Below, piece after piece: positions 28,513 to 40,226 of a stretch of 64,000 nucleotides of DNA. The stretch comes from an uncultured bacterium (GTDB lineage Bacteria > Verrucomicrobiota > Lentisphaeria > Victivallales > UBA1829). A program made the translations under genes and the position numbers. A model generated the notes under the pieces. That model worked only from the letters and a program-made list of their open reading frames with translations, was not told where the DNA came from and ran no database searches. The stretch lies in contig CADCMR010000013.1 of the NCBI GenBank assembly GCA_902802585.1, positions 1 to 64,000 on the forward strand, read 5' to 3'. Numbering within the stretch: position 1 is the stretch's first letter; every line of letters begins with the position of its first letter.

Positions 28513-30435
28513 ATGAACGTCAAGAAAGACAAATTTGAACACTGGTCGGCGGAGGACTCCGCCACGCTTTACGGCATCAACGACTGGGGTGCCGGATACT
28601 TCCACGTCAACGAGAAGGGCGAGCTCACCATTTCGCCGAATCCGGACAAGGATGCTCCGGCGGTCAGCCTGCCCGACATCGTGCAGGGCATCCGGGAACG
28701 CGGCATGAACATGCCCGTGCTGATCCGCGTCAGCAACATCCTGGAATCCCGCATCAACCAGCTCCACGCGAGCTTCCGCAAGGCGATCGAACAGACCAAG
28801 TACAAGGGGCGGTACAAGGGCGTCTTCCCCATCAAGGTCAATCAGCAGCAGCAGGTCGTGCAGGACATCTCCCGCTACGGCAGGGAGTTCCACCACGGCC
28901 TCGAAGCCGGCAGCAAGGCGGAACTCATCGCCGCCCTCGGCACGCTCCACGACCCCGAGGCGTGCGTGGTCTGCAACGGCTACAAGGACGAGGAATTCGT
29001 CGATCTCGCCCTGTTCGCCTCCATGCTCGGATACCGGTGCATCCTCGTCATCGAAATGCCCAGCGAACTCGACGTGATCATTGAGCGCAGCCGCATGCTC
29101 AAGGTCAAACCCATGATCGGCGTCCGCATGAAGCTCTCCACGCGCGCGGGCGGCAAGTGGACCGAATCCGGCGGCGACCGCAGCGTGTTCGGCTTGAACA
29201 CCGCCCAGCTTATGGAGCTCGTCGACCAACTGAAGGAAGAGGAAATGCTCGACTGTCTCCGCCTCCTCCACTACCACATCGGCTCACAAATCCCGAACAT
29301 CCGCGACATCCGGTCCGGCGTTCAGGAGGCGAGCCGCGTCTACATCGGGCTCGTGCAGGAAGGCGCGCCGATGGGCTACCTCGACCTCGGCGGCGGACTC
29401 GCGGTCGACTACGACGGATCCCACACGAACTACCAGCACAGCCGGAACTACACCATCGACGAATACTGCGTCGACATCATCGAGACCGTCGGCGAACTGC
29501 TCACCGAGGCAAACGTCCCCCACCCGGACATCATCACCGAGTCCGGACGCGCCACCGTCGCGTACTCCTCCATCCTGCTCTTCAACATCCTCGACGTCGC
29601 CCGCTTCGACCCGGTCACCATCCCGGACAAGATCCCGGAGAACGCGCATGACCTCACGAAGGACCTGATGAACATCCTCTCGAACATCAACCAGAAGAAC
29701 TTGCAGGAGTTCTTCCACGACGCCATCTACAACCGCGACGAGCTGCGGCTGCTCTTCAAGAACGGTCGCATCTCCCTCCGCGAGCGCGCCCTCGTCGAAT
29801 CCGCCTTCTGGCACATCATGGCGGTCGCGAACAAGGAGGCGCAGAAGCTCGCCTACATCCCGGACGAATTCGAGGACCTCGACGCCCAGCTCGCCGACAT
29901 CTACTACGCCAACTTCAGCGTCTTCCAGTCCCTCCCCGACTCCTGGGCGATCCACCAGGTCTTCCCCATCGTCCCCATCCACCGCCTCAACGAACGCCCC
30001 ACGCGCAGCGGCATCCTGTCCGACATCACCTGCGACTGCGACGGCAAGGTGGACAAGTTCGTGGACCTGCATGACGAGCTCCACACGCTCCCGCTCCACG
30101 AGCTGAAGCCGGACGAGGAATACTACCTCGGCGTGTTCCTGGTCGGCGCGTACCAGGAGACGCTCGGCGACCTCCACAACCTGCTCGGCGACACCAACGT
30201 CGTCAGCATCACCATCTCCCCGGACGGGCATTTCGACATCGACAAGGAGATCGAGGGCGACTCCGTCGGCGACGTGCTGTCCTACGTCGAGTACGACGCC
30301 AAGGAGCTCATCACCTTCTTCCGCAGCGTCGCCGAACGCGCCGTCCGCAGGAAAATGATCACTCCCGCCCAGCGAAAGACCATCACGAACGCGTTCGAGG
30401 ACGGCATTCGCGGATACACTTATTTTGAACGTTAA
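28513..30435 (+). CDS. speA: Biosynthetic arginine decarboxylase (SpeA)
   Basis: 640 residues, full length for the SpeA family. The PLP-binding lysine is Lys108 in GVFPIKVNQQ; the PLP phosphate loop is YLDLGGGLAVDYDG; the C-terminal catalytic Cys segment is DITCDCDGKVD. It converts arginine to agmatine, the first step of putrescine synthesis. A carboxynorspermidine dehydrogenase gene follows after 27 bases, which places both in a spermidine-type pathway that does not need S-adenosylmethionine decarboxylase. GAGG precedes the ATG. Agmatine-to-putrescine enzymes are not in this window. Confidence 0.93.
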   Translation: MNVKKDKFEHWSAEDSATLYGINDWGAGYFHVNEKGELTISPNPDKDAPAVSLPDIVQGIRERGMNMPVLIRVSNILESRINQLHASFRKAIEQTKYKGRYKGVFPIKVNQQQQVVQDISRYGREFHHGLEAGSKAELIAALGTLHDPEACVVCNGYKDEEFVDLALFASMLGYRCILVIEMPSELDVIIERSRMLKVKPMIGVRMKLSTRAGGKWTESGGDRSVFGLNTAQLMELVDQLKEEEMLDCLRLLHYHIGSQIPNIRDIRSGVQEASRVYIGLVQEGAPMGYLDLGGGLAVDYDGSHTNYQHSRNYTIDEYCVDIIETVGELLTEANVPHPDIITESGRATVAYSSILLFNILDVARFDPVTIPDKIPENAHDLTKDLMNILSNINQKNLQEFFHDAIYNRDELRLLFKNGRISLRERALVESAFWHIMAVANKEAQKLAYIPDEFEDLDAQLADIYYANFSVFQSLPDSWAIHQVFPIVPIHRLNERPTRSGILSDITCDCDGKVDKFVDLHDELHTLPLHELKPDEEYYLGVFLVGAYQETLGDLHNLLGDTNVVSITISPDGHFDIDKEIEGDSVGDVLSYVEYDAKELITFFRSVAERAVRRKMITPAQRKTITNAFEDGIRGYTYFER

Positions 30436-30462
30436 GACACTTCACAGAAGGAGACCCACACC

Positions 30463-31644
30463 ATGTCAAGAGTCCTGATCATCGGAGCCGGCGGCGTCGC
30501 AACCGTCGCCGCGCACAAATGCGTCCAGGCGTCGGACGTCTTCACCGACATCATGATCGCCAGCCGCACAGAGTCCAGATGCAAGAAACTGGCCGCCGCC
30601 CTGAAGCGTCCCGTTCAGACCGCGCAGGTCGACGCCGACAACGTCCCGCAGCTCGTCGAGCTCATCAGGTCGTTCCGCCCGGACGTTGTCCTGAACCTCG
30701 CCCTGCCCTACCAGGATCTCCACATCATGGACGCCTGCCTCGAGACCGGCGTGGACTACGTCGACGCCGCCAACTACGAGCCGCCGGACGTCGCGCACTT
30801 CGAGTACAGCTGGCAGTGGGCGTACCGCGACCGTTTCCGCGAGAAGGGCATCACCGCGCTCCTCGGCAGCGGATTCGATCCCGGCGTCTCCAACGTCTAC
30901 ACCGCATGGGAAAAACAGTATTTCGACACCATCGACACGCTCGACATCATCGACTGCAACGCGGGCGACAACGGCCAGGCGTTCGCCACCAACTTCAACC
31001 CGGAGATCAACATCCGCGAGGTCACGGCGAAGGGCAAATACTACAAGGACGGTCAGTTCATCGAGACCGAGCCGCTTGAATTCTCCAAGATGTTCGACTT
31101 CCCCCACGGAATCGGTCCGAAGAAGATCTACCTCCTCTGGCACGAGGAACTCGAATCCCTCGCCCCGTACCTGAAGCCGTACGGTCTCAAGGAGGCGCGG
31201 TTCTGGATGACCTTCTCCGACAACTACATCAAGCACCTCGAAGTCCTTCAGGACGTCGGCATGACCCGCATCGACCCGGTCATGTACGAGGGGCACGAGA
31301 TCATCCCGCTCCAGTTCCTGAAGGCGCTCCTCCCCGATCCCGCCTCCCTCGGCCCGCTCACCAAGGGCAAGACCTGCATCGGCTGCCTTCTCCAGGGCTC
31401 CAAGGACGGAAAGCCCGTCAAGCGCTTCGTGTACAACGTCTGCGACCACGAGGAATCCTTCCGCGAGACCGGCGCGCAGGCGGTCTCCTACACCACCGGC
31501 GTCCCCGCCATGATCGGCGCGATGATGCTCGCCACCGGCACATGGAAGGGACCCGGCGTCTTCAACATGGAGGAATTCGATCCCGCCCCCTTCATGCGGA
31601 AGCTCAACGAGTACGGCCTCCCCTGGGAAGAGATCGTGTACTGA
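30463..31644 (+). CDS. Carboxynorspermidine dehydrogenase / saccharopine dehydrogenase family
   Basis: 393 residues. An N-terminal Rossmann fold opens RVLIIGAGGVATVAAHKCVQ. The active-site region contains LGSGFDPGVSNVYTAW and CNAGDNGQAFATNFNPEINI, typical of the carboxynorspermidine dehydrogenase branch of the saccharopine dehydrogenase family. The reaction condenses aspartate semialdehyde with putrescine (or diaminopropane) and reduces the imine to carboxyspermidine. Linkage to speA (27-base gap, AAGGAG ribosome site) supports this over lysine metabolism. The carboxylase partner NspC, which would finish the pathway, is not in the window. A terminator follows. Confidence 0.9.
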   Translation: MSRVLIIGAGGVATVAAHKCVQASDVFTDIMIASRTESRCKKLAAALKRPVQTAQVDADNVPQLVELIRSFRPDVVLNLALPYQDLHIMDACLETGVDYVDAANYEPPDVAHFEYSWQWAYRDRFREKGITALLGSGFDPGVSNVYTAWEKQYFDTIDTLDIIDCNAGDNGQAFATNFNPEINIREVTAKGKYYKDGQFIETEPLEFSKMFDFPHGIGPKKIYLLWHEELESLAPYLKPYGLKEARFWMTFSDNYIKHLEVLQDVGMTRIDPVMYEGHEIIPLQFLKALLPDPASLGPLTKGKTCIGCLLQGSKDGKPVKRFVYNVCDHEESFRETGAQAVSYTTGVPAMIGAMMLATGTWKGPGVFNMEEFDPAPFMRKLNEYGLPWEEIVY

Positions 31645-31656
31645 GTCATCAACACG

Positions 31657-31691
31657 GGGATGGTTTCCGACCGCGGAGCCATCCCTTTTTT
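31657..31691 (+). terminator. Intrinsic terminator of the polyamine operon
   Basis: GGGATGG (31657-31663) pairs with CCATCCC (31679-31685), followed by TTTTTT. Confidence 0.8.
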
Positions 31692-31705
31692 CTCCTGCCG
31701 CGACA

Positions 31706-31807
31706 ATGAAACGCAAAACGAAAATCCCGGAAAGCGTCTGGAACATCATCTGCACGGCGGCGATTCTCGCCGTCCTCGTCATCGCCGCGTTCGCATTCTT
31801 CAAATAA
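31706..31807 (+). CDS. 33-residue single-pass membrane peptide
   Basis: Opens MKRKTKIPESVWNIICTAAI and ends LAVLVIAAFAFFK: a basic N-terminus followed by one clean 20-residue membrane helix. It starts 15 bases after the polyamine terminator and ends eight bases before the sigma-factor ATG, so it would be the first gene of the sigma-kinase unit. No strong ribosome site is visible. Very short membrane proteins next to ECF sigma factors can act as sensors or anti-sigma helpers; that role is a guess. Confidence 0.45.
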   Translation: MKRKTKIPESVWNIICTAAILAVLVIAAFAFFK

Positions 31808-31815
31808 GCGTTCCC

Positions 31816-32469
31816 ATGTACACGACCAGAAAAACACTGCTGCAGAGAATGCAGGATTGCGATGAGATCTCCTGGGAGGAGTTCTACCGCATCTACTGGC
31901 CGCTGGTCCTCGACATCGGTCGGAAGCTCGGCATGTCGCAGGACAATTGCGCGGACCTCATGCAGGAGATCATGCTCGACCTGTTCAACGGCGAAACGCT
32001 GCTGCACTACGATCCCGCCAAGGGAAAGTTCCGGACCTTCTTCGGTGTGCTCGTCCGCCACAAGGCGGCGGAAATGCTCAAAAAAACCGCACGGTTCGCC
32101 AATGTTCCCTCTCAGAATTCCGTTGAATCCGGCGCTTCCGGCGCGTTCCCCGACGATCTCCCTGCATCGCTGGTCCGGGACGACCATGGCGAGAGCAACC
32201 CGTTCCAGATGCTGTTCGACGAGGAATACCGCAAGTGCCTTCTTTCCGCGGCGATGAACGAGCTCCGGAACACCATCGAGCCGAAGACCTACGCGATCTT
32301 CGAAATGGTCGTGCTCCAGGAGCGTCCGCAGAAAGAGGTCGCCCGCCACCTCGGGATCAACCGCGCCACCATCGACGTCTACTGCTCCCGCTGCCGCAAG
32401 ACGCTCCGGAGGATCGTTTCCGAAATCCGCCTCGAAAACCCCGATTTCAACCTCGATATCCCGCTATGA
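31816..32469 (+). CDS. ECF-like RNA polymerase sigma factor, kinase-linked
   Basis: 217 residues from the ATG at 31816. Sigma region 2 spans about 20-95 (WEEFYRIYWPLVLDIGRKLG; CADLMQEIMLDLF; GKFRTFFGVLVRHKAAEML). A variable linker (about 100-140) leads to region 4 (LQERPQKEVARHLGINRATI, about 175-205), with a helix-turn-helix. It is cytoplasmic and directs polymerase to a specific promoter set. The stop overlaps the kinase ATG (ATGA, 32466-32469), so the kinase is translationally coupled. Kinase-linked ECF groups are known from Planctomycetes and relatives, where phosphorylation is thought to control the sigma factor. Confidence 0.85.
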   Translation: MYTTRKTLLQRMQDCDEISWEEFYRIYWPLVLDIGRKLGMSQDNCADLMQEIMLDLFNGETLLHYDPAKGKFRTFFGVLVRHKAAEMLKKTARFANVPSQNSVESGASGAFPDDLPASLVRDDHGESNPFQMLFDEEYRKCLLSAAMNELRNTIEPKTYAIFEMVVLQERPQKEVARHLGINRATIDVYCSRCRKTLRRIVSEIRLENPDFNLDIPL

Positions 32470-34805
32470 ACCCCCAGACACCATTCGACTTCGAGAAAGA
32501 CGACAGCGTGGACGGCATGACCGTCATCGCGCCCATCGTCCGGGGCGGGCACGGGGACCTCTACCTCGTCTCCGGCGCGGAGGACGGACGGAAACATGTC
32601 CTGAAGCTGATCCGGAAGCCGGACAACGAAAGCGAGTTCACCGGGATCGAAAAATGCCGCGCGATCTCCTCGCACATCCCCGGACTGGTCTCCATCCTGA
32701 AGGTCGGCAGACTCGCCGACGGACGCGTCTGGTGCGTCATGCCGGCGGCGGACAACCTGGCGAAAGAGCCGGACTATGAACCGGACACGCTCGCGGCCCG
32801 CATCAGACGGGACGGCAGGATCCCGCCGGGCGAGGTACTGGAGCTCGCGAAACACATCCTGACGACCATCAAGGCGCTTCACGAGGCCGGGCTCGCCCAC
32901 TGCGACATCAAGCCCGACAATATCGTCTTCATCGGCGGTCAGGCGATGCTGACCGACTACAGCCTGCTTTCCGACACGCTGAACCATCTCGTCGACGCTC
33001 CGTTCGGAACACCGGGCTTCGTTCCGCCGGAAATGCAGGACGATTCCGCTCAATATGAACCCCGCGCCAGCGACCTTTACGCCGTCGGAAAGCTTATTTA
33101 CACCGCCTGGTCCGGGACAGACGCGCTCCTCTTCCCGTCCGTTTCCAGGGAGATCCCGCTCACGGAAATCGGGATCATGCTGCCGATCTACATGAAAGCA
33201 TGCAGCAATTACCCGAACCGGCGGTTCCAGGACGCCGATGAATTCATCGCCTCCATCTCGGACGCGCAGGCACGGCTTCGCAGCAGGACGCTGGCGTGGG
33301 GACGGAAGGCGTTCCGGGAATACAGATGGATCCTCCCCTCGATCATCCTCGTTCTCTGCGTGACGGCGCTTCTCCTGTTCCTCCGCCCCGGCGGCCGGGT
33401 CAAAAGCGACCCGCTCGTCGTAACGACCCCATGGGACGTCATGGAGCCGGACGACGGCACGGTCAGCCTGCGCGAGGCGCTCGCCTTCGCGCAAACGCCC
33501 GGCGGTCTCCGCAAGATCAGCTTCAACATGCCGGACAGCGACTCCGTCCAACTGACCGACCCCGCGCTGATCAAACGCAACATGCGGTTCGCCACGACGA
33601 ACGAAAAGAGCGGCAACCCCGTGGACATCGTGCTGGACAGCCTCATCATCTCAAACCGGCGGATTGCGACGCCCGAAGAGGATATCGCGGACGGCGGCGG
33701 CGCGGTGCTTCATGCGAACACCGGACGGTTCATCGTCAGGAAAGGCGTGTTCTCCGGAAACGCCGACGAGGGAGCCGGCGGCACGGGCGGCGCCTTCCGG
33801 ATGGTCGACTGCTTCCTGTCCATAGACAGCGCGGTCTTCCAGAACAACGCCGCGTTCAGCGCCGGCGGCGCGCTGAACCTCGAACGCACCCGCGCACTCA
33901 TCCAAAACACGCAATTCAGTGGGAACCGCGTCAACGGATTCGGCGGCGCGCTCGACCTCTCCGGTTGCCCTGAGGTCCGCATCATTGATTCCTGCTTTGA
34001 ATTCAACAGGACCGGAGACAACGATTATTACGGTTGGTGCGGCGGCGCAATCCAGCTCGAGGGCGGCAACCTGATCCTCGAAGTCTCCGAGGGGCTCACG
34101 ATTATAAACGAGGGCAACGAATCCGGACACGGCGGTTTCCTCACGCTCGCCATGTACGACAAAACGCTCCCGAAATGCTCCGGCGCCGAGTTCCGTATCA
34201 ACGGCGCCATGATCATCGGCGACGGCGACGGCAGGGACTCCATCGCCACCAGCGTCAGGACGGGTCCCGAATACACGGACGCCCCCCGCCCCGTGCAGGA
34301 CATCAGTTCGTACAACATCTTCATCCGCAAGACGGGAAAAGGCATCCTGTCGATCAACGCACCCGTCAGCGATTACGACGGGCAGTGGTTCCTTGAGGAA
34401 GGCGCCCTTGTCTTCACCTACGACAAGGGCGGCGACCTCGACGGCGCGATCACGATCTCTGGCGGACAGATGGTCCTTGACGATCCGCACAAGTTCAAGA
34501 CGCTGACCTTCCGCCCCGAAAAACCAAACGAAAGACCGTTTATCGTCAATCTTTTCAACCTCACCGGCGGAACATTCTACATTGACGCCTCCAAAGCCGC
34601 GGACGGCACCTATCTGCTCGCCGACGGCGTGGACAGTTTCAGCAGGACATTCACGCTCCGGAATGTCGATGCGTCCGGCGAATCGTCCGTTGCGCTGTCC
34701 GTCGGGCAGGCCGTGACCGTCGGCGGAGCAAGTTACACGCTGTCCATGAAATACGGCACGCTGAGCCTGACCAAAACATCAGCTGGGAAAACCGCCAACC
34801 GCTGA
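32466..34805 (+). CDS. Transmembrane Ser/Thr protein kinase with extracytoplasmic Pmp-like beta-helix
   Basis: 779 residues. Kinase domain 18-275: Gly-rich loop IVRGGHGDLYLV, Lys47, HCDIKPDN (145-152) with catalytic Asp147, and GTPGFVPPEM. The usual DFG is DYS (164-166); the metal-binding Asp is kept. One membrane helix (about 287-306) leads to an outside region that opens with GTVSLREALAFA and folds as a right-handed beta-helix. It contains GGA-type repeats resembling chlamydial polymorphic membrane proteins (FSGNADEGAGGTGGAF; FQNNAAFSAGGAL; FSGNRVNGFGGAL). The outer part probably senses, the kinase signals, and the coupled sigma factor is the likely target. The 16S-tail array begins 21 bases after the stop. 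Confidence 0.85.
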   Translation: MNPQTPFDFEKDDSVDGMTVIAPIVRGGHGDLYLVSGAEDGRKHVLKLIRKPDNESEFTGIEKCRAISSHIPGLVSILKVGRLADGRVWCVMPAADNLAKEPDYEPDTLAARIRRDGRIPPGEVLELAKHILTTIKALHEAGLAHCDIKPDNIVFIGGQAMLTDYSLLSDTLNHLVDAPFGTPGFVPPEMQDDSAQYEPRASDLYAVGKLIYTAWSGTDALLFPSVSREIPLTEIGIMLPIYMKACSNYPNRRFQDADEFIASISDAQARLRSRTLAWGRKAFREYRWILPSIILVLCVTALLLFLRPGGRVKSDPLVVTTPWDVMEPDDGTVSLREALAFAQTPGGLRKISFNMPDSDSVQLTDPALIKRNMRFATTNEKSGNPVDIVLDSLIISNRRIATPEEDIADGGGAVLHANTGRFIVRKGVFSGNADEGAGGTGGAFRMVDCFLSIDSAVFQNNAAFSAGGALNLERTRALIQNTQFSGNRVNGFGGALDLSGCPEVRIIDSCFEFNRTGDNDYYGWCGGAIQLEGGNLILEVSEGLTIINEGNESGHGGFLTLAMYDKTLPKCSGAEFRINGAMIIGDGDGRDSIATSVRTGPEYTDAPRPVQDISSYNIFIRKTGKGILSINAPVSDYDGQWFLEEGALVFTYDKGGDLDGAITISGGQMVLDDPHKFKTLTFRPEKPNERPFIVNLFNLTGGTFYIDASKAADGTYLLADGVDSFSRTFTLRNVDASGESSVALSVGQAVTVGGASYTLSMKYGTLSLTKTSAGKTANR

Positions 34806-34826
34806 CAGAAGCCCGGCGTTTTTCCG

Positions 34827-35154
34827 ATCACCTCCTTTCTAAAGTTAATGGGATCACCTCCTTTCTAAGAGCATCACCTCCTTTCTAAAGTTAATGGGAT
34901 CACCTCCTTTCTAAAAGAGCATCACCTCCTTTCTAAAGTTAATGGGATCACCCCCTTTCTAAAAGAGCATCACCCCCTTTCTAAAAGAGCATCACCCCCT
35001 TTCTAAGAGCATCACCCCCTTTCGCATCACCCCCTTTCTAAGAGCATCACCCCCTTTCTAAGAGCATCACCCCCTTTCTAAGAGCATCACCTCCTTTCTA
35101 AAGTTAATGGGATCACCCCCTTTCTAAACGCTAAAAGGATCACCTCCTTTCTAA
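34827..35154. repeat. Tandem array of 15 copies of the 16S rRNA 3' tail (anti-SD) sequence; SD array on the minus strand
   Basis: Fifteen 16-bp units of ATCACC(T/C)CCTTTCTAA start at 34827, 34853, 34873, 34899, 34921, 34947, 34969, 34991, 35011 (truncated to 13), 35026, 35046, 35066, 35086, 35112 and 35139. Seven units carry T at position 7 and equal the bacterial 16S 3' end; eight carry C. Spacers are AGTTAATGGG (10 bp; after units 1, 3, 5, 13), GAGC or AAGAGC (4-6 bp), GC once and one 11-bp variant. Units after the 10-bp spacer, and the last unit, are preceded by GG, extending the match to GGATCACCTCCTTTCTAA. On the minus strand each unit is AGAAAGG(A/G)GGTGAT, a full-length SD. No coding frame or CRISPR organisation. 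Confidence 0.95.
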
Positions 35155-35202
35155 AATGCTTTTTTTGTCCGGAAAAACATCGAAAACTTTTACAGTCGCT
35201 GC

Positions 35203-35231
35203 TTGCATTGTCGCCCGGACGGGTGTATTGT
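35203..35231 (+). promoter_or_regulatory. Promoter of the Sel1-repeat gene
   Basis: TTGCAT (35203-35208), 17-bp spacer, TATTGT (35226-35231). It lies downstream of the array, so the array is outside this transcript. Confidence 0.6.
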
Positions 35232-35288
35232 ATATTGCAATTTGACGAAACTTTCCATTTTTTTTGCAGCGCCAGAAAGGATCCGCCC

Positions 35289-36989
35289 ATGTCGTCACGC
35301 TCAATCCGCCTTGTTACAGCCGGGCTCGCCGCCCTCCTCCTGAGCGGGACCGCCGCGTACGGGATCACGATCCCGAAAAAAACGGACAGGTACGCTGAGA
35401 AACCGAAAACCGAGGAACCGAAAACCGAAGAACAGCAAAAGGCGGAAGAGCTGTATCTTCAGGGCAGGGAATACGACGAGGAGGACGAATCGGAAAAGGC
35501 GATGGAGTGTTTTCGTCAGGCCGCCGAACTGGGACACGACAAGGCGCAGGTCCTTCTCGCCTACACCTGTATGACGGAAGACAAAACGGACGAGGCGATC
35601 AAGTGGTATCGCAAAGCCGCCGAACAGGGAAACACCGCGGCGCCGACTCTTCTGGGGCGGATCTATTTCGAAGACGAACAGTATATGAACATGAAGGAGG
35701 CGGCGAAATGGTTCCGCATGGGAGCCGAACAGGGACAACTGGCGCAACTGCGATACGGCATCTGCTGTTTTGAGGGATACGGCGTGACGCAGGACCGCGA
35801 AGAGGCGGTGAAGTGGTTCCGCAAAGCCGCCGAACAGATTCTCCCCGACCCGGAGGCGCAGTACATGCTGGGCATCTGCTGCCGGGACGGTCTGGGCGTC
35901 GAACAGAACCGCGCGGAAGCCGTGAAGTGGTTCCGCAAAGCCGCCGATTATCCTACTCCCGACGGCGCGTACGGGCTCGGCGTCTGCTATATGGAAGGGT
36001 ACGGCGTCAAACAGGACATGAAGGAGGCGGTGAAATGGTTTCTCAAAGCCGCCGAACAGGGTCGCCCGTACGCACTGTGCGCACTGGGCGTCTGTTACAG
36101 GAACGGGCTCGGCGTGACGGAAGATCCCGCCAGGGCAAAGGATTATTTCAAAAAAGCAATGGAAGGCGGCCACAGGTATTCCCCCAAAGGGCTGCCGGAA
36201 CGCGCGGAAGATGGCGACCATGAGGCGCTGTACTGGCTGGGAGTCTGTTACGAGGAAGGCTGGGGCGTCGAACAGGACGACGCCATGGCGGTCGCATGTC
36301 TTCATGCCGCCGAACAGAACAACGACCGGGCGCAGGTCGCGCTGGCGCGGCACTATCTGAAAACCGGAGACCGGAAGGCGGCGGAACGCTGGCTCCGCAA
36401 AGCCGCGAAACGCGACAATCCGTCCGCAAAAAAACTCCTGACCGAGCTCTTTCCGGGGAAAGAAGCCGAAGAGGAAACGGACAAATCCGTTCAGGCAGCG
36501 GAAACCGGCGCTACGATCGCACATCTCCAGACTGCCCTGAAAACCGACGACGCGGAGGCGTTCGCATGGATTCGCGATACCGCCGGACAGGGCGACCCGA
36601 AAGCCCAATGTGCCCTCGGCGTCTGTTATTCGGAAGGCTATGGCACGGCAAAAGATGCCGCCGAAGCGAAACAATGGTTCGCAAAAGGGATCGACGGACT
36701 TCGCAAGGCGGCGGAAGACGGCGATCCCGAGGCGCAGACGCTGCTCGCCGGATGCTACGGCGAGGGGAACGGCGTGAAGGCGGACCAGACGCTCTCCATC
36801 ATCTGGCTGCGCAAGGCTGCGGAACAGGATTTCGCCAGGGCGCAGCTTGCGCTCGCGCTCATATATGCTACGGTGGATAAGGACAGGATGGAAGCGGACA
36901 AATGGTTCCGCAAGGCCGCGGAGAACGGAGAAGCCGACGCCGGAACGCTCATGAAACGGTTCCTCCCGGATCCCGTCGAGACGGAATAA
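35289..36989 (+). CDS. Secreted Sel1-like repeat protein
   Basis: 566 residues. A signal peptide (about 1-25, ending TAAYG) precedes a Lys/Glu-rich linker and roughly a dozen Sel1/TPR-like repeats of 36 residues, of the form EAVKWFRKAAEQG...AQYMLGICCRDGLGV. Such solenoids mediate protein contacts, here in the periplasm or outside. The start at 35289 has AGAAAGGA upstream; the in-frame ATG at 35208 lies before the promoter -10 and is excluded. The last 75 bases recur beyond the next gene. No terminator separates it from the LRR gene 64 bases on. Confidence 0.85.
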   Translation: MSSRSIRLVTAGLAALLLSGTAAYGITIPKKTDRYAEKPKTEEPKTEEQQKAEELYLQGREYDEEDESEKAMECFRQAAELGHDKAQVLLAYTCMTEDKTDEAIKWYRKAAEQGNTAAPTLLGRIYFEDEQYMNMKEAAKWFRMGAEQGQLAQLRYGICCFEGYGVTQDREEAVKWFRKAAEQILPDPEAQYMLGICCRDGLGVEQNRAEAVKWFRKAADYPTPDGAYGLGVCYMEGYGVKQDMKEAVKWFLKAAEQGRPYALCALGVCYRNGLGVTEDPARAKDYFKKAMEGGHRYSPKGLPERAEDGDHEALYWLGVCYEEGWGVEQDDAMAVACLHAAEQNNDRAQVALARHYLKTGDRKAAERWLRKAAKRDNPSAKKLLTELFPGKEAEEETDKSVQAAETGATIAHLQTALKTDDAEAFAWIRDTAGQGDPKAQCALGVCYSEGYGTAKDAAEAKQWFAKGIDGLRKAAEDGDPEAQTLLAGCYGEGNGVKADQTLSIIWLRKAAEQDFARAQLALALIYATVDKDRMEADKWFRKAAENGEADAGTLMKRFLPDPVETE

Positions 36990-36995
36990 AAGAAC
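36921..36995 (+). repeat. 75-bp direct repeat, left copy (Sel1 gene 3' end)
   Basis: Matches 39085-39159 at 71 of 75 positions. This copy is the intact 3' end of the Sel1 gene including its stop codon. The two copies bracket the LRR gene. Confidence 0.85.
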
Positions 36996-37053
36996 CGATC
37001 TTTCCGCCAATCATAATCCCCAATAAGACCATATTCCGACAAAGGAGAACACA

Positions 37054-39048
37054 ATGTCAAAAAAATCATCAGATTTTATACTCAGCTTTGATCAGAACAC
37101 TTTGCTGAAATGTAAAGAAGATGTTACACACGTCACTATCCCGGACGGCGTCAGGACAATCGGGAACAATGCATTCAGAGGATGTACCGGACTGACCTCC
37201 GTCGTCATCCCGGACGGCGTCAGGACAATCGGGAACAATGCATTCAGAGGATGTACCGGACTGACCTCCGTCGTCATCCCGGACAGCGTCAGGACAATCG
37301 GCTACGAGGCGTTCGCGGACTGTACCGGACTGACCTCCGTCGTCATCCCGGACGGCGTCAGGGTAATCTACGATGGAACATTCAAGGGTTGTTCCAGACT
37401 GACCTCCGTTGTCATTCCGGACAGCGTCATGGAAATCGGAACTGTCCATTTTTTACGTTCTCTCGGGAACCGGGTCTTTTCCTCACCCAAACAAAAATAT
37501 ATCGACAAGATGTATTATGGCGCATTCGAGGGATGTACAAGTCTGACCAGCGTAAACATCCCCAACGATGTCAGGATAATCGGCAATGAAGCATTCAGAG
37601 ACTGCAAAGCTCTGACTTCCATCGTCATCCCGGACAAAGTCAGGACAATCGGCAATGTGGCATTCGCGTTTTGTGCCGGACTGACCAGCATCGTCATCCC
37701 GGACAGCGTCAGGACAATCGGCTATGCGACCTTCTCGGACTGTACCGGACTGACCTCCGTCGTCATCCCGGACAAAGTCAAAATAATCGACGACTGTACG
37801 TTCCGGAACTGTACAAGCCTGACCTCCGTGGTTATCCCGGACAGCGTCAGAAGCATCGGATGGCGTACGTTCGAGGGTTGTGCAAGCCTGGCTTCCGTGG
37901 TAATCCCAAACAACGTCAGAAGCATCGAAGAGGGTGCGTTCATGGGCTGTACCAGCCTGACTTCCGTGGTCATCCCGGACGGCGTCAAAATAATCGGCGC
38001 AAGAGCGTTCGATGGTTGTACAAGCCTGACCTCCGTGGTTATCCCAAACAACGTTGAGGAAATCAGATGGGAAGCGTTCTATGGCTGCACCGGACTGACC
38101 AGCGTTGTTATCCCGGACAGCGTCAGGACAATCGGCTACGAGGCATTCGCGGACTGCACCGGACTGACCTCCGTCGTCATCCCGGACAGCGTCAAAATGA
38201 CCATCACCAATGTGTTCGCGGGCTGCAGCAGATTACCCCCTTTGATGGGCAAAGAAATCGTATCATGGTCAAACGCAACCGGGGACATCATCATCCCCGA
38301 TGGAGTCACAGAAATCCGCGATGGGGCATTCAAGGGCTGCACCGGAATGACCTCCGTTGTCATCCCGGACAGCGTCAACACAATCGGCAAAGAGGCGTTC
38401 AGGAAATGCACCGGACTGACCTCCGTCGTCATCCCGGACAGCGTCAGCACAATCGGCAAAGAGGCGTTCAAGGACTGTACCGGACTGACCTCCGTCGTCA
38501 TCCCGGACAGCATCAGGATTATCGCGGGCTGGGTGTTCGATGGCTGCACCAATTTGACTCGAATAGCCATCCCGGACAGCGTCAAGACAATCGAGGTTGC
38601 CGCTTTCGAGGGGTGCACAGGACTGACTTCCGTAGTCATCCCGAACGGCGTCAAAAGAATCGAATGGTATGCATTCTGGCGATGTGCAAGCCTGACCAGC
38701 ATAGTCATCCCGAACGGCATCAGGTCTATCGAGATCGGTACGTTTTCGGGCTGTACAAAAATGACCGGCGTGATCATCCCGGACAGCGTCAAGACAATCG
38801 AGGTTGCCGCCTTCGACGGGTGCACAGGACTGACTTCCGTAGTCATCCCGAACGGCGTTGAGGAAATCATGCGGCGCGCGTTCAATGAGTGCACAGGACT
38901 GACCTGTGTACTCATTCCCCAAAGCGTCAAAAGAATCGAAGGGGGTGCGTTTTACGGCTGTTCATCCCTGACCGAAGTCAAGATTCCGAAAAAGACGCAT
39001 ATTGAAGAGGATTCCTTCCCTGAAGCATGCACAATCTCTAGATATTGA
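37054..39048 (+). CDS. BspA-like leucine-rich-repeat protein
   Basis: 664 residues, almost entirely 23-residue LRR_5 (BspA/Treponema-type) repeats: consensus VVIPDSVRTIGYEAFxxCTGLTS, about 27 copies. Repeats near the N-terminus are identical at DNA level with a 69-bp period, showing recent expansion. BspA relatives are surface adhesins, but this protein has no signal peptide (it opens MSKKSSDFILSFDQNTLLKC) and no anchor, so it may be cytoplasmic or exported another way. AAAGGAG precedes the ATG. It is more AT-rich than the Sel1 gene and is flanked by copies of that gene's 3' end, which suggests insertion. Confidence 0.87.
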   Translation: MSKKSSDFILSFDQNTLLKCKEDVTHVTIPDGVRTIGNNAFRGCTGLTSVVIPDGVRTIGNNAFRGCTGLTSVVIPDSVRTIGYEAFADCTGLTSVVIPDGVRVIYDGTFKGCSRLTSVVIPDSVMEIGTVHFLRSLGNRVFSSPKQKYIDKMYYGAFEGCTSLTSVNIPNDVRIIGNEAFRDCKALTSIVIPDKVRTIGNVAFAFCAGLTSIVIPDSVRTIGYATFSDCTGLTSVVIPDKVKIIDDCTFRNCTSLTSVVIPDSVRSIGWRTFEGCASLASVVIPNNVRSIEEGAFMGCTSLTSVVIPDGVKIIGARAFDGCTSLTSVVIPNNVEEIRWEAFYGCTGLTSVVIPDSVRTIGYEAFADCTGLTSVVIPDSVKMTITNVFAGCSRLPPLMGKEIVSWSNATGDIIIPDGVTEIRDGAFKGCTGMTSVVIPDSVNTIGKEAFRKCTGLTSVVIPDSVSTIGKEAFKDCTGLTSVVIPDSIRIIAGWVFDGCTNLTRIAIPDSVKTIEVAAFEGCTGLTSVVIPNGVKRIEWYAFWRCASLTSIVIPNGIRSIEIGTFSGCTKMTGVIIPDSVKTIEVAAFDGCTGLTSVVIPNGVEEIMRRAFNECTGLTCVLIPQSVKRIEGGAFYGCSSLTEVKIPKKTHIEEDSFPEACTISRY

Positions 39049-39084
39049 TGCCACAGATCCGAGTCCATTCCACGCTCGGACGAA

Positions 39085-39159
39085 GAGAACGGGGAAGCCG
39101 ACGCCGGAACGCTCATGAAACGGTTCCTCCCGGATCCCGTCGAAGCGGAATAAAGGAAC
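39085..39159 (+). repeat. 75-bp direct repeat, right copy
   Basis: Relic of a Sel1-type gene 3' end, still containing the in-frame coding text and stop codon but no upstream gene body. Differs from 36921-36995 at four positions. Confidence 0.85.
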
Positions 39160-39324
39160 AAAACCTGTCAACTTTCAACAATTCCCGAAAGGACTGAATC
39201 CTGACCTCCCGCTTGATCCTCGAAATGATTGTTCTGTTCGTCTCTGTTTGCCTGTTTGCTTGGCGGCGTGACCATGTCCGCGGTATTATTCCGGGATGTA
39301 CGTTCATAATTATTTAGAATATCT

Positions 39325-39480
39325 ATTAATTTGATCGGAAGGTTTTTCAGCAGACAGGTACACAAGACGATGCAGGAAGATTTGAGTGTGGCTACCTGAA
39401 GGTAACCACCGAAAATCTTACCAGTTGGAATTTGCCCGGATGCGAAAAGCCACAAAAAACCAATTAATAGAAATGCCCTT
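39325..39480. repeat. Dispersed ~155-bp element, copy 2
   Basis: Second copy of the element at 10628-10783, same orientation. It ends where the DUF2442 gene ends on the other strand. Together with 39160-39324, where nothing was seen, it fills the gap after the LRR gene. Confidence 0.65.
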
Positions 39481-39917
39481 TAGCCGGAAACACGCGTTCC
39501 ACTTCGGGATGCGACGGTTTTGCGACGTTCCGTCTGTTTGCGCGGCCGTCCACCCTTCAACCCGTTGCGGCGGCTGGCGGCGGCCTTTCGTTCGGACTTC
39601 ACGGCACCGCCGACTGACCCGAGGCGGGCAAGAAGACGTTTTCTCTGCTCTTTCCACCAAATCTCATCCACAATGCTTGCTTCTTCCGGCGGGTTCTCAA
39701 TATATTTGACCTCAAGGTCAATATCGGCATCGGGCCAGTGGAGACCTTCCGCACTCGCCTGGACATTGTAAAGCTCGCCGAGAAAACAGTTGCGGAAATA
39801 CGGATAACGGTCAAAGTCGATCCGGTAAATCTTCCCGCAATGACTGACCGACATGTAGTCTTTCGTCAGTTTAACGACTTTTGCGCTCACAGGCATACCA
39901 TTGGTCGAGACACTCAT
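39480..39917 (-). CDS. DUF2442-type protein, putative antitoxin-like partner
   Basis: 145 residues. The first half is a DUF2442-like domain (MSVSHCGKIYRIDFDRYPYF; LHWPDADIDLEVKYIENPPE). The C-terminus is basic with a GLKGGRPRK tail, common in this family and resembling an AT-hook. It overlaps the upstream DUF4160 gene by 47 bases and has AAGGAG eight bases before the ATG, so the two are coupled. The DUF4160/DUF2442 pairing is widespread and has been proposed as a toxin-antitoxin-like module; that function is not proven. The last bases run into the dispersed repeat. Confidence 0.72.
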   Translation of the reverse strand: MSVSTNGMPVSAKVVKLTKDYMSVSHCGKIYRIDFDRYPYFRNCFLGELYNVQASAEGLHWPDADIDLEVKYIENPPEEASIVDEIWWKEQRKRLLARLGSVGGAVKSERKAAASRRNGLKGGRPRKQTERRKTVASRSGTRVSG

Positions 39918-40119
39918 TTCTGCGACTCCTTATTTCAGACAGGATTTTGTTTGCGGTCGAGGAGTTGATCCCGTGAATGTATTCCACCTCGACCTCCGGT
40001 TCAAGCCAGACTTTCATGGATTCTTCCGAGCCGAACTTCAGCACATGGACGTAGGGACGTTTTTCTTCATCCGAAAAACGTCCGATCCAAAAACCGAGAA
40101 AGGCGAAAAACTTAGGCAT
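39871..40119 (-). CDS. DUF4160-type protein
   Basis: 82 residues from the ATG at 40119 (two more if the ATG at 40125 is used). It has the family's compact layout: MPKFFAFLGFWIGRFSDEEK, the PYVHV segment with its His, then KVWLEPEVEVEYIHGIN and a C-terminal helix. Small, soluble and cytoplasmic. First gene of the coupled pair with the DUF2442 gene. Predicted as the effector half in proposed toxin-antitoxin-like modules, with no catalytic mechanism known. The upstream region to 40226 is AT-rich and contains a TTTTTCGAGAAAAAA palindrome. Confidence 0.7.
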   Translation of the reverse strand: MPKFFAFLGFWIGRFSDEEKRPYVHVLKFGSEESMKVWLEPEVEVEYIHGINSSTANKILSEIRSRRNECLDQWYACERKSR

Positions 40120-40226
40120 AAGCATCCATGTATGGAAAGTTTATATATTACTATAACCCTACGCTTGGGTTTTTCAAGCAGAAAAAGATTGTTTTTCCTC
40201 TTTTTCGAGAAAAAAGTCCGCAAATC

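Follow-up and report, generated by a model that had tools for sequence, protein, structure and literature searches.

A Tandem Array of 16S rRNA 3'-Tail Sequences behind a Sigma-Kinase Gene Pair and a Conserved Single Copy in the Same Bacterial Genus

Array, flanking genes, and the 16S rRNA 3' end

The window analyzed here is the whole stretch of 64,000 nucleotides from an uncultured bacterium of the order Victivallales. Downstream of genes for an arginine decarboxylase and a saccharopine-dehydrogenase-like protein, it carries a sigma factor gene and a protein kinase gene followed by a tandem array of short repeats. The features of this locus, in window coordinates, are as follows.

31816-32469, plus strand: gene for a sigma-70 family factor, likely start at 31816 (Pfam Sigma70_r2 and r4_2; sequence)
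32466-34805, plus strand: protein kinase gene (Pfam Pkinase), with a 4-nt overlap of the sigma stop and its own stop 21 nt ahead of the array
34778-40209, no strand assigned: genome-specific block with the array at its left edge, a Sel1 gene, a BspA-LRR gene, and remnants
34818-34826, plus strand: GTTTTTCCG, left arm of the inverted repeat (9 bp) on either side of the array, which may be due to chance
34827-35154, plus strand: tandem array of 15 units ATCACC(T/C)CCTTTCTAA with spacers of 2-11 nt (pattern match; identical to the genome's own 16S 3' end)
34827-34946, plus strand: units 1-5, T-type (perfect anti-Shine-Dalgarno, anti-SD), spacers alternating between AGTTAATGGG and (AA)GAGC and forming 48-bp dimers
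34947-35085, plus strand: units 6-12, C-type (CCCCC for CCTCC), spacers GAGC or AAGAGC, unit 9 (35011) truncated
35086-35154, plus strand: units 13 (T), 14 (C), and 15 (T), spacers AGTTAATGGG and ACGCTAAAAGG
35170-35178, minus strand: CGGAAAAAC, right arm of the 9-bp inverted repeat, with the same reservation as to chance
35203-35231, plus strand: Sel1 promoter-like sequence TTGCAT-17-TATTGT, past the end of the array
35289-36989, plus strand: gene for a secreted Sel1-repeat protein

The presence of the array at 34827-35154 was confirmed. The 15 units and coordinates of the original prediction hold, and all units lie on the plus strand; 14 are exact, whereas unit 9 is truncated, lacking TAAGA and carrying two mismatches. 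As predicted, the array begins 21 nt past the kinase stop codon. The predicted periods of 26 and 20-22 bp were found (26, 20, and 22), in addition to one of 15 and one of 27, and the spacers comprise AGTTAATGGG (four times), GAGC (five), AAGAGC (three), one deletion, and one ACGCTAAAAGG. Seven units are T-type (1-5, 13, and 15), in agreement with the predicted number bearing the ribosomal anti-SD tail, and in the other eight of the 15 the CCUCC core is lost (CCCCC). The claim that T-type units 2, 4, and 15 also match the preceding GG is correct but incomplete, given that C-type units 6 and 14 are likewise preceded by GG.

The 16S rRNA gene is present as a single copy in this assembly (contig C2, 214361-215874) and ends in GGATCACCTCCTTTCTAAGGAGCA (its 3' end is also given as ...GGCTGGATCACCTCCTTTCTAAGGAGCAGACAGG or GGATCACCTCCTTTCTAAGGAGCAGACAGG). 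Compared with the 16S 3' end of the species itself, as the original prediction had advised, the unit is the exact tail. Its claim that never more than the last ~18 nt of 16S are present needs refinement: in units with GAGC spacers, TCTAA-GAGCA corresponds to TCTAAGGAGCA in the rRNA operon, with 23/24 positions matching and one gap. The likeness to the 16S locus thus runs a few bases past the mature end, which, if the unit is a copy, makes the 16S gene or precursor a likelier source than mature rRNA.

Several ordinary explanations of the array were rejected. Chance is ruled out, because 100 shuffled versions of the window gave at most three unit matches compared to the 15 observed. A coding repeat is ruled out by periods of 20, 22, and 26, which shift the reading frame. 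Nor is this a CRISPR array, with repeats of at least 23 nt and unique spacers of constant length; here units of 16 nt are separated by recurring spacers of 2-11 nt. No credible match to an Rfam family was found within 30000-40000. The plus strand of the array folds no better than shuffled sequences (z +1.4) and has the highest excess of C over G in the window, so that it is C-rich, G-poor, and unstructured. On the minus strand, the 20-bp units between 34986 and 35090 form six-codon mini-ORFs with TGATG stop-start overlaps and an SD each, which are probably accidental.

If transcription from upstream continues, the array would occupy a 3'-UTR position in the sigma-kinase transcript. A function in the leader of the Sel1 gene is ruled out, since that gene has its own promoter (35203-35231) downstream of the array. 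This type of promoter and leader recurs at paralogous loci: a near-identical sequence (CTTGCAT...TATTGTATAT...GACGAAACTTT...AGAAAGGA; window 35203-35290; L248, L238, L239, and L246) precedes several genes for secreted proteins in the genus. Separately, the 3' end of the Sel1 gene (TLMKRFLPDPVE; 36940-36989) is repeated after the BspA-LRR gene (39100-39160), suggesting a local duplication flanking the LRR gene.

At the orthologous site in nine congeners, the kinase gene is kept and the array is absent. DNA synteny with relatives (~80-89% identity) stops at ~34777 and resumes at ~40209, and the intervening block of 5.4 kb replaces 0.4-1.7 kb in seven congeners. The genome is a draft of 31 contigs, in which short repeats can be mis-assembled, and the copy number of the array could be wrong. 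That the array as such is an assembly artefact or has a mistaken copy number appears highly improbable, however, since it is internal to a contig of 171,860 bp, with synteny to relatives on both sides, and its units are distinguishable and ordered, unlike a simple collapse. We regard as equally improbable that the array marks a site, repeated at a hot spot, at which a mobile element recognizing the 16S 3' end attaches or inserts. Its position at the edge of a genome-specific block and the flanking 9-bp inverted repeat would fit such a site, but no integrase or transposase is found among the large ORFs of the block, no duplicated target was seen at the block junctions, and there is no phage or plasmid match, viral contigs holding only a few scattered matches to the tail.

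Rarity of the array and a conserved single copy elsewhere in the genome

Similar arrays were sought in related genomes, and no pattern of even two copies of the unit was found in 198 other genomes of the wider group; the original prediction had listed such an absence among the observations that would speak against it, leaving a one-off slippage expansion. Other arrays in the genome itself were sought by pattern only. A relaxed three-copy pattern matched, besides the array itself, a single C-rich look-alike from a different genus within the order (G080, L267 1243-1419), which consists of ~10 copies of an 18-bp AATAAAGCTCACCCCCTT located between divergent genes and shares CACCCCCTT. This look-alike was rejected as a counterpart; it is without CCTCC, and by a rough estimate one such match is about what chance would give among tandem arrays.

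When ~85,000 species were scanned, neighboring pairs of ATCACCTCCTT turned up at 43 loci, which were sorted by eye; the data set may lack entries closely related to the genome of the window. The loci are coding repeats, paired SDs before genes, or one duplication in the ITS, and none resembles the array, which argues against a widespread class. The ITS case is Quadrisphaera sp. INWT6, in which the rRNA operons at three places of one genome (L041, L055, and L059) carry a second ATCACCTCCTT in the ITS, 43 bp after the copy at the 16S end. Phages and plasmids had no match to the array, and an origin from these was rejected; in viral contigs the array pattern was absent, with only a few scattered matches to the 16S tail. 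In the literature we found no described anti-SD tandem array. As far as these genome and literature searches reach, they support the original statement that no element like this one has been described.

The genome contains one other copy of the unit outside the 16S gene, which the original prediction had missed. It is GGATCACCTCCTTTCTAA (contig C6, 4472-4490; L019, G000), located 3 nt behind the stop codon of an NYN-CSD gene and before mlaE, and it is followed by a GC-rich hairpin-like stretch. The element is kept in six genomes of the genus, namely G000, G012 (with a 1-nt insertion), G003, G007, G004, and G009 (orthologs of L019 are L128, L129, L130, L132, and L190). In G001 and G005 a degraded form remains, whereas G010, G011, G002, and G008 have no recognizable copy. 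Across the six species with an intact copy, mean pairwise identity is 96% in the element, 46% in the rest of the spacer, and 84% at the start of mlaE, the first figure being inflated by the choice of species for holding the motif, with three others of the clade having lost or degraded it.

The tail outside 16S, recognized as VGGATCACCTCCTTTCT not preceded by the T of 16S, occurs in five of 198 class genomes, all of this genus, and the full tail was not found outside 16S at any locus of these genomes beyond the array and the nyn-csd/mlaE spacer. Without selection, 18 nt would not be expected to stay almost unchanged in several lineages while the flanks accumulate indels. Because the unit is conserved in the nyn-csd/mlaE spacer and the tail is confined to two loci, it is best seen as a functional sequence of the genus, and its conservation as a single copy argues that the unit itself matters. 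Together, the comparisons suggest that in this genus the unit probably mimics the 16S 3' tail and is maintained by selection. As a separate observation, ATCACCCCCTTTCTAAGGAG lies just before a start codon in G003 (L134; contig C138, 27007-27024); it is anti-SD-like and could fold onto the SD, but may be there by chance.

Possible origin and roles of the 16S-tail copies

The array is probably a recent expansion of the unit or of the 16S end, and its copy number need not be functional. Its copies are arranged head to tail with higher-order duplications, and it is lineage-specific and absent at the orthologous site, as is typical of a minisatellite. Signatures of slippage include the 48-bp dimers, higher-order repeats of 55 and 75 bp, and the location of T units outside and C units inside. 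The order of the units (48-bp dimers on the left, C-type monomers in the middle, T-type units at both ends, and one deletion) is as expected from replication slippage or from unequal exchange. A core that is invariant but for one T/C site, with spacers that differ in kind, speaks against slippage of one unit alone. The array shares with the element before mlaE just GGG before and AACG after one unit, and its spacers also resemble the rRNA operon (GAGCA). We infer that the copy number of the array is neutral and probably not under strong selection.

We assign a probability of about 0.5 to a reading in two layers, in which a selected single-copy mimic of the 16S tail is present in the genus and was recently expanded into an array in this genome. 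According to this proposal, the unit would reproduce the 16S rRNA 3' tail (GGAUCACCUCCUUUCU) together with the initial bases of the precursor, and in this genus selection would preserve a single copy of it directly after the stop codon of the NYN-CSD gene (RNA-binding, nuclease-like) and before mlaE. There it would most likely imitate the 16S tail within the mRNA, either bound by a protein that normally recognizes the tail or pairing with an SD. The array would have arisen from such a sequence by replication slippage or unequal exchange and, if transcribed, would provide the sigma-kinase mRNA with a long, unstructured, C-rich, and G-poor tail containing several intact mimics. The conserved element holds GGAUCA as well as CCUCC, which is more than an anti-SD requires, and binding of the mimic by a factor of the 16S tail could explain its whole conserved length. 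The position of an RNA-binding, nuclease-like gene directly upstream suggests a possible feedback.

A cis-acting control as in icaR (PMC3868564), in which anti-SD units in the 3'-UTR pair with the SD of their own mRNA (sigma-kinase for the array, nyn-csd for the single copy), thereby blocking translation or recruiting RNase III, is a doubtful alternative. Both the array and the single-copy element lie directly behind stop codons, and a 10-nt pairing is possible between the nyn-csd SD TTGGAAAGGA and TCCTTTCTAA, which extends into the TAA past the end of 16S. By contrast, the sigma and kinase genes have no clear SD, nothing in the nyn-csd leader evidently pairs with the conserved GGATCACC half of the element, and species without the element keep nearly the same nyn-csd SD.

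Alternatively, the array could act as a sponge that tunes global translation, the plus transcript binding the SDs of mRNAs or a minus transcript with 15 SDs capturing the 30S subunit. Complementarity is perfect over 18 nt in units 2, 4, and 15, and pairing energies of minus-strand units with the 16S tail range from -23 to -31 kcal/mol, the C-type still pairing through G-U. However, no promoter was found for a minus transcript over the array, and no relative keeps an array. The mRNA-binding version is weakened by the eight of 15 units without the CCUCC core, which lose ~4.5-5 kcal/mol of pairing with SD sites on the plus strand, and array RNA would presumably need a high copy number to matter against ribosomes. 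The case for a sponge is weak, and we consider such a role unlikely.

Just as unlikely, in our estimate, is a 3' tail for Rho loading, with a C-rich stretch behind the stop codon allowing Rho to end the sigma-kinase transcript before the Sel1 promoter. The GC skew of the array reaches -0.6, its excess of C over G is the top value in the window, and there are 83 YC dinucleotides in 328 nt. From the kinase stop through the last unit, the plus strand showed no intrinsic terminator. Judged from its sequence, the array would qualify as a Rho utilization site (C-rich, G-poor, and unstructured over ~70-100 nt or more), and Rho loading would offer a simple alternative account of whatever the array itself might do. 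Yet it leaves the identity to the 16S tail unexplained, another place on the same strand nearly equals the C-G excess of the array (45 versus 49), and relatives manage without such an array.

An extension of the two-layer reading, which we offer only tentatively and hold to be rather unlikely, is that the genus uses copies of the 16S tail embedded in mRNAs as a signal. The single mimic behind the NYN-CSD gene and a 15-copy decoy behind the sigma-kinase operon would both be read by a binder or processor of the 16S tail (Era, the NYN-CSD protein, or the 30S subunit), and expression would sense ribosome maturation. Strong constraint on an 18-nt copy of the 16S tail between two protein genes is unexpected. 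If the proposal is correct, this would be a linear rRNA mimic in an mRNA, possibly coupling the expression of an RNA-binding nuclease to ribosome assembly, and the 15-copy array would be a natural test of amplifying such a sequence.

Comparison with known systems

The array resembles intergenic tandem repeats of the minisatellite type in that its units are short and form higher-order dimers, its older variants flank the younger ones, and it is restricted to one genome. It differs from them in that its unit is the exact 16S 3' tail and that spacers of unrelated kinds separate near-invariant cores.

Autoregulation of ribosomal proteins employs mRNA mimics of their binding sites on rRNA. To our knowledge, these mimics copy folded sites of ribosomal proteins and not the linear 16S 3' tail. 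The likeness to the present case is an mRNA with a copy of an rRNA site; here the spacer element is conserved at a fixed locus and has a candidate binder only.

Beggiatoaceae contain TAACTGA direct repeats in intergenic regions, in 169 dispersed sets mostly just before start codons, for which a post-transcriptional role was proposed (PMC4679880). These are similar as short intergenic direct repeats but have another unit and are dispersed, whereas here a single array lies behind a stop codon. In the icaR mRNA of Staphylococcus aureus, one 7-nt UCCCCUG motif in the 3'-UTR pairs with the SD of the same mRNA (PMC3868564). An anti-SD behind the stop codon of a regulatory gene is common to both systems, although the array repeats its 18-nt unit 15 times, and the sigma-kinase genes offer it no clear SD to pair with. 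The KH domain of Era reads GAUCA and the anti-SD (CCUCC) on the 16S tail (PMC10582724). Although there is no helix 45 beside the unit and most array units are without GAUCA or CCUCC, the conserved element and units 1, 2, 4, and 15 contain GAUCACCUCC, as does the site recognized by Era.
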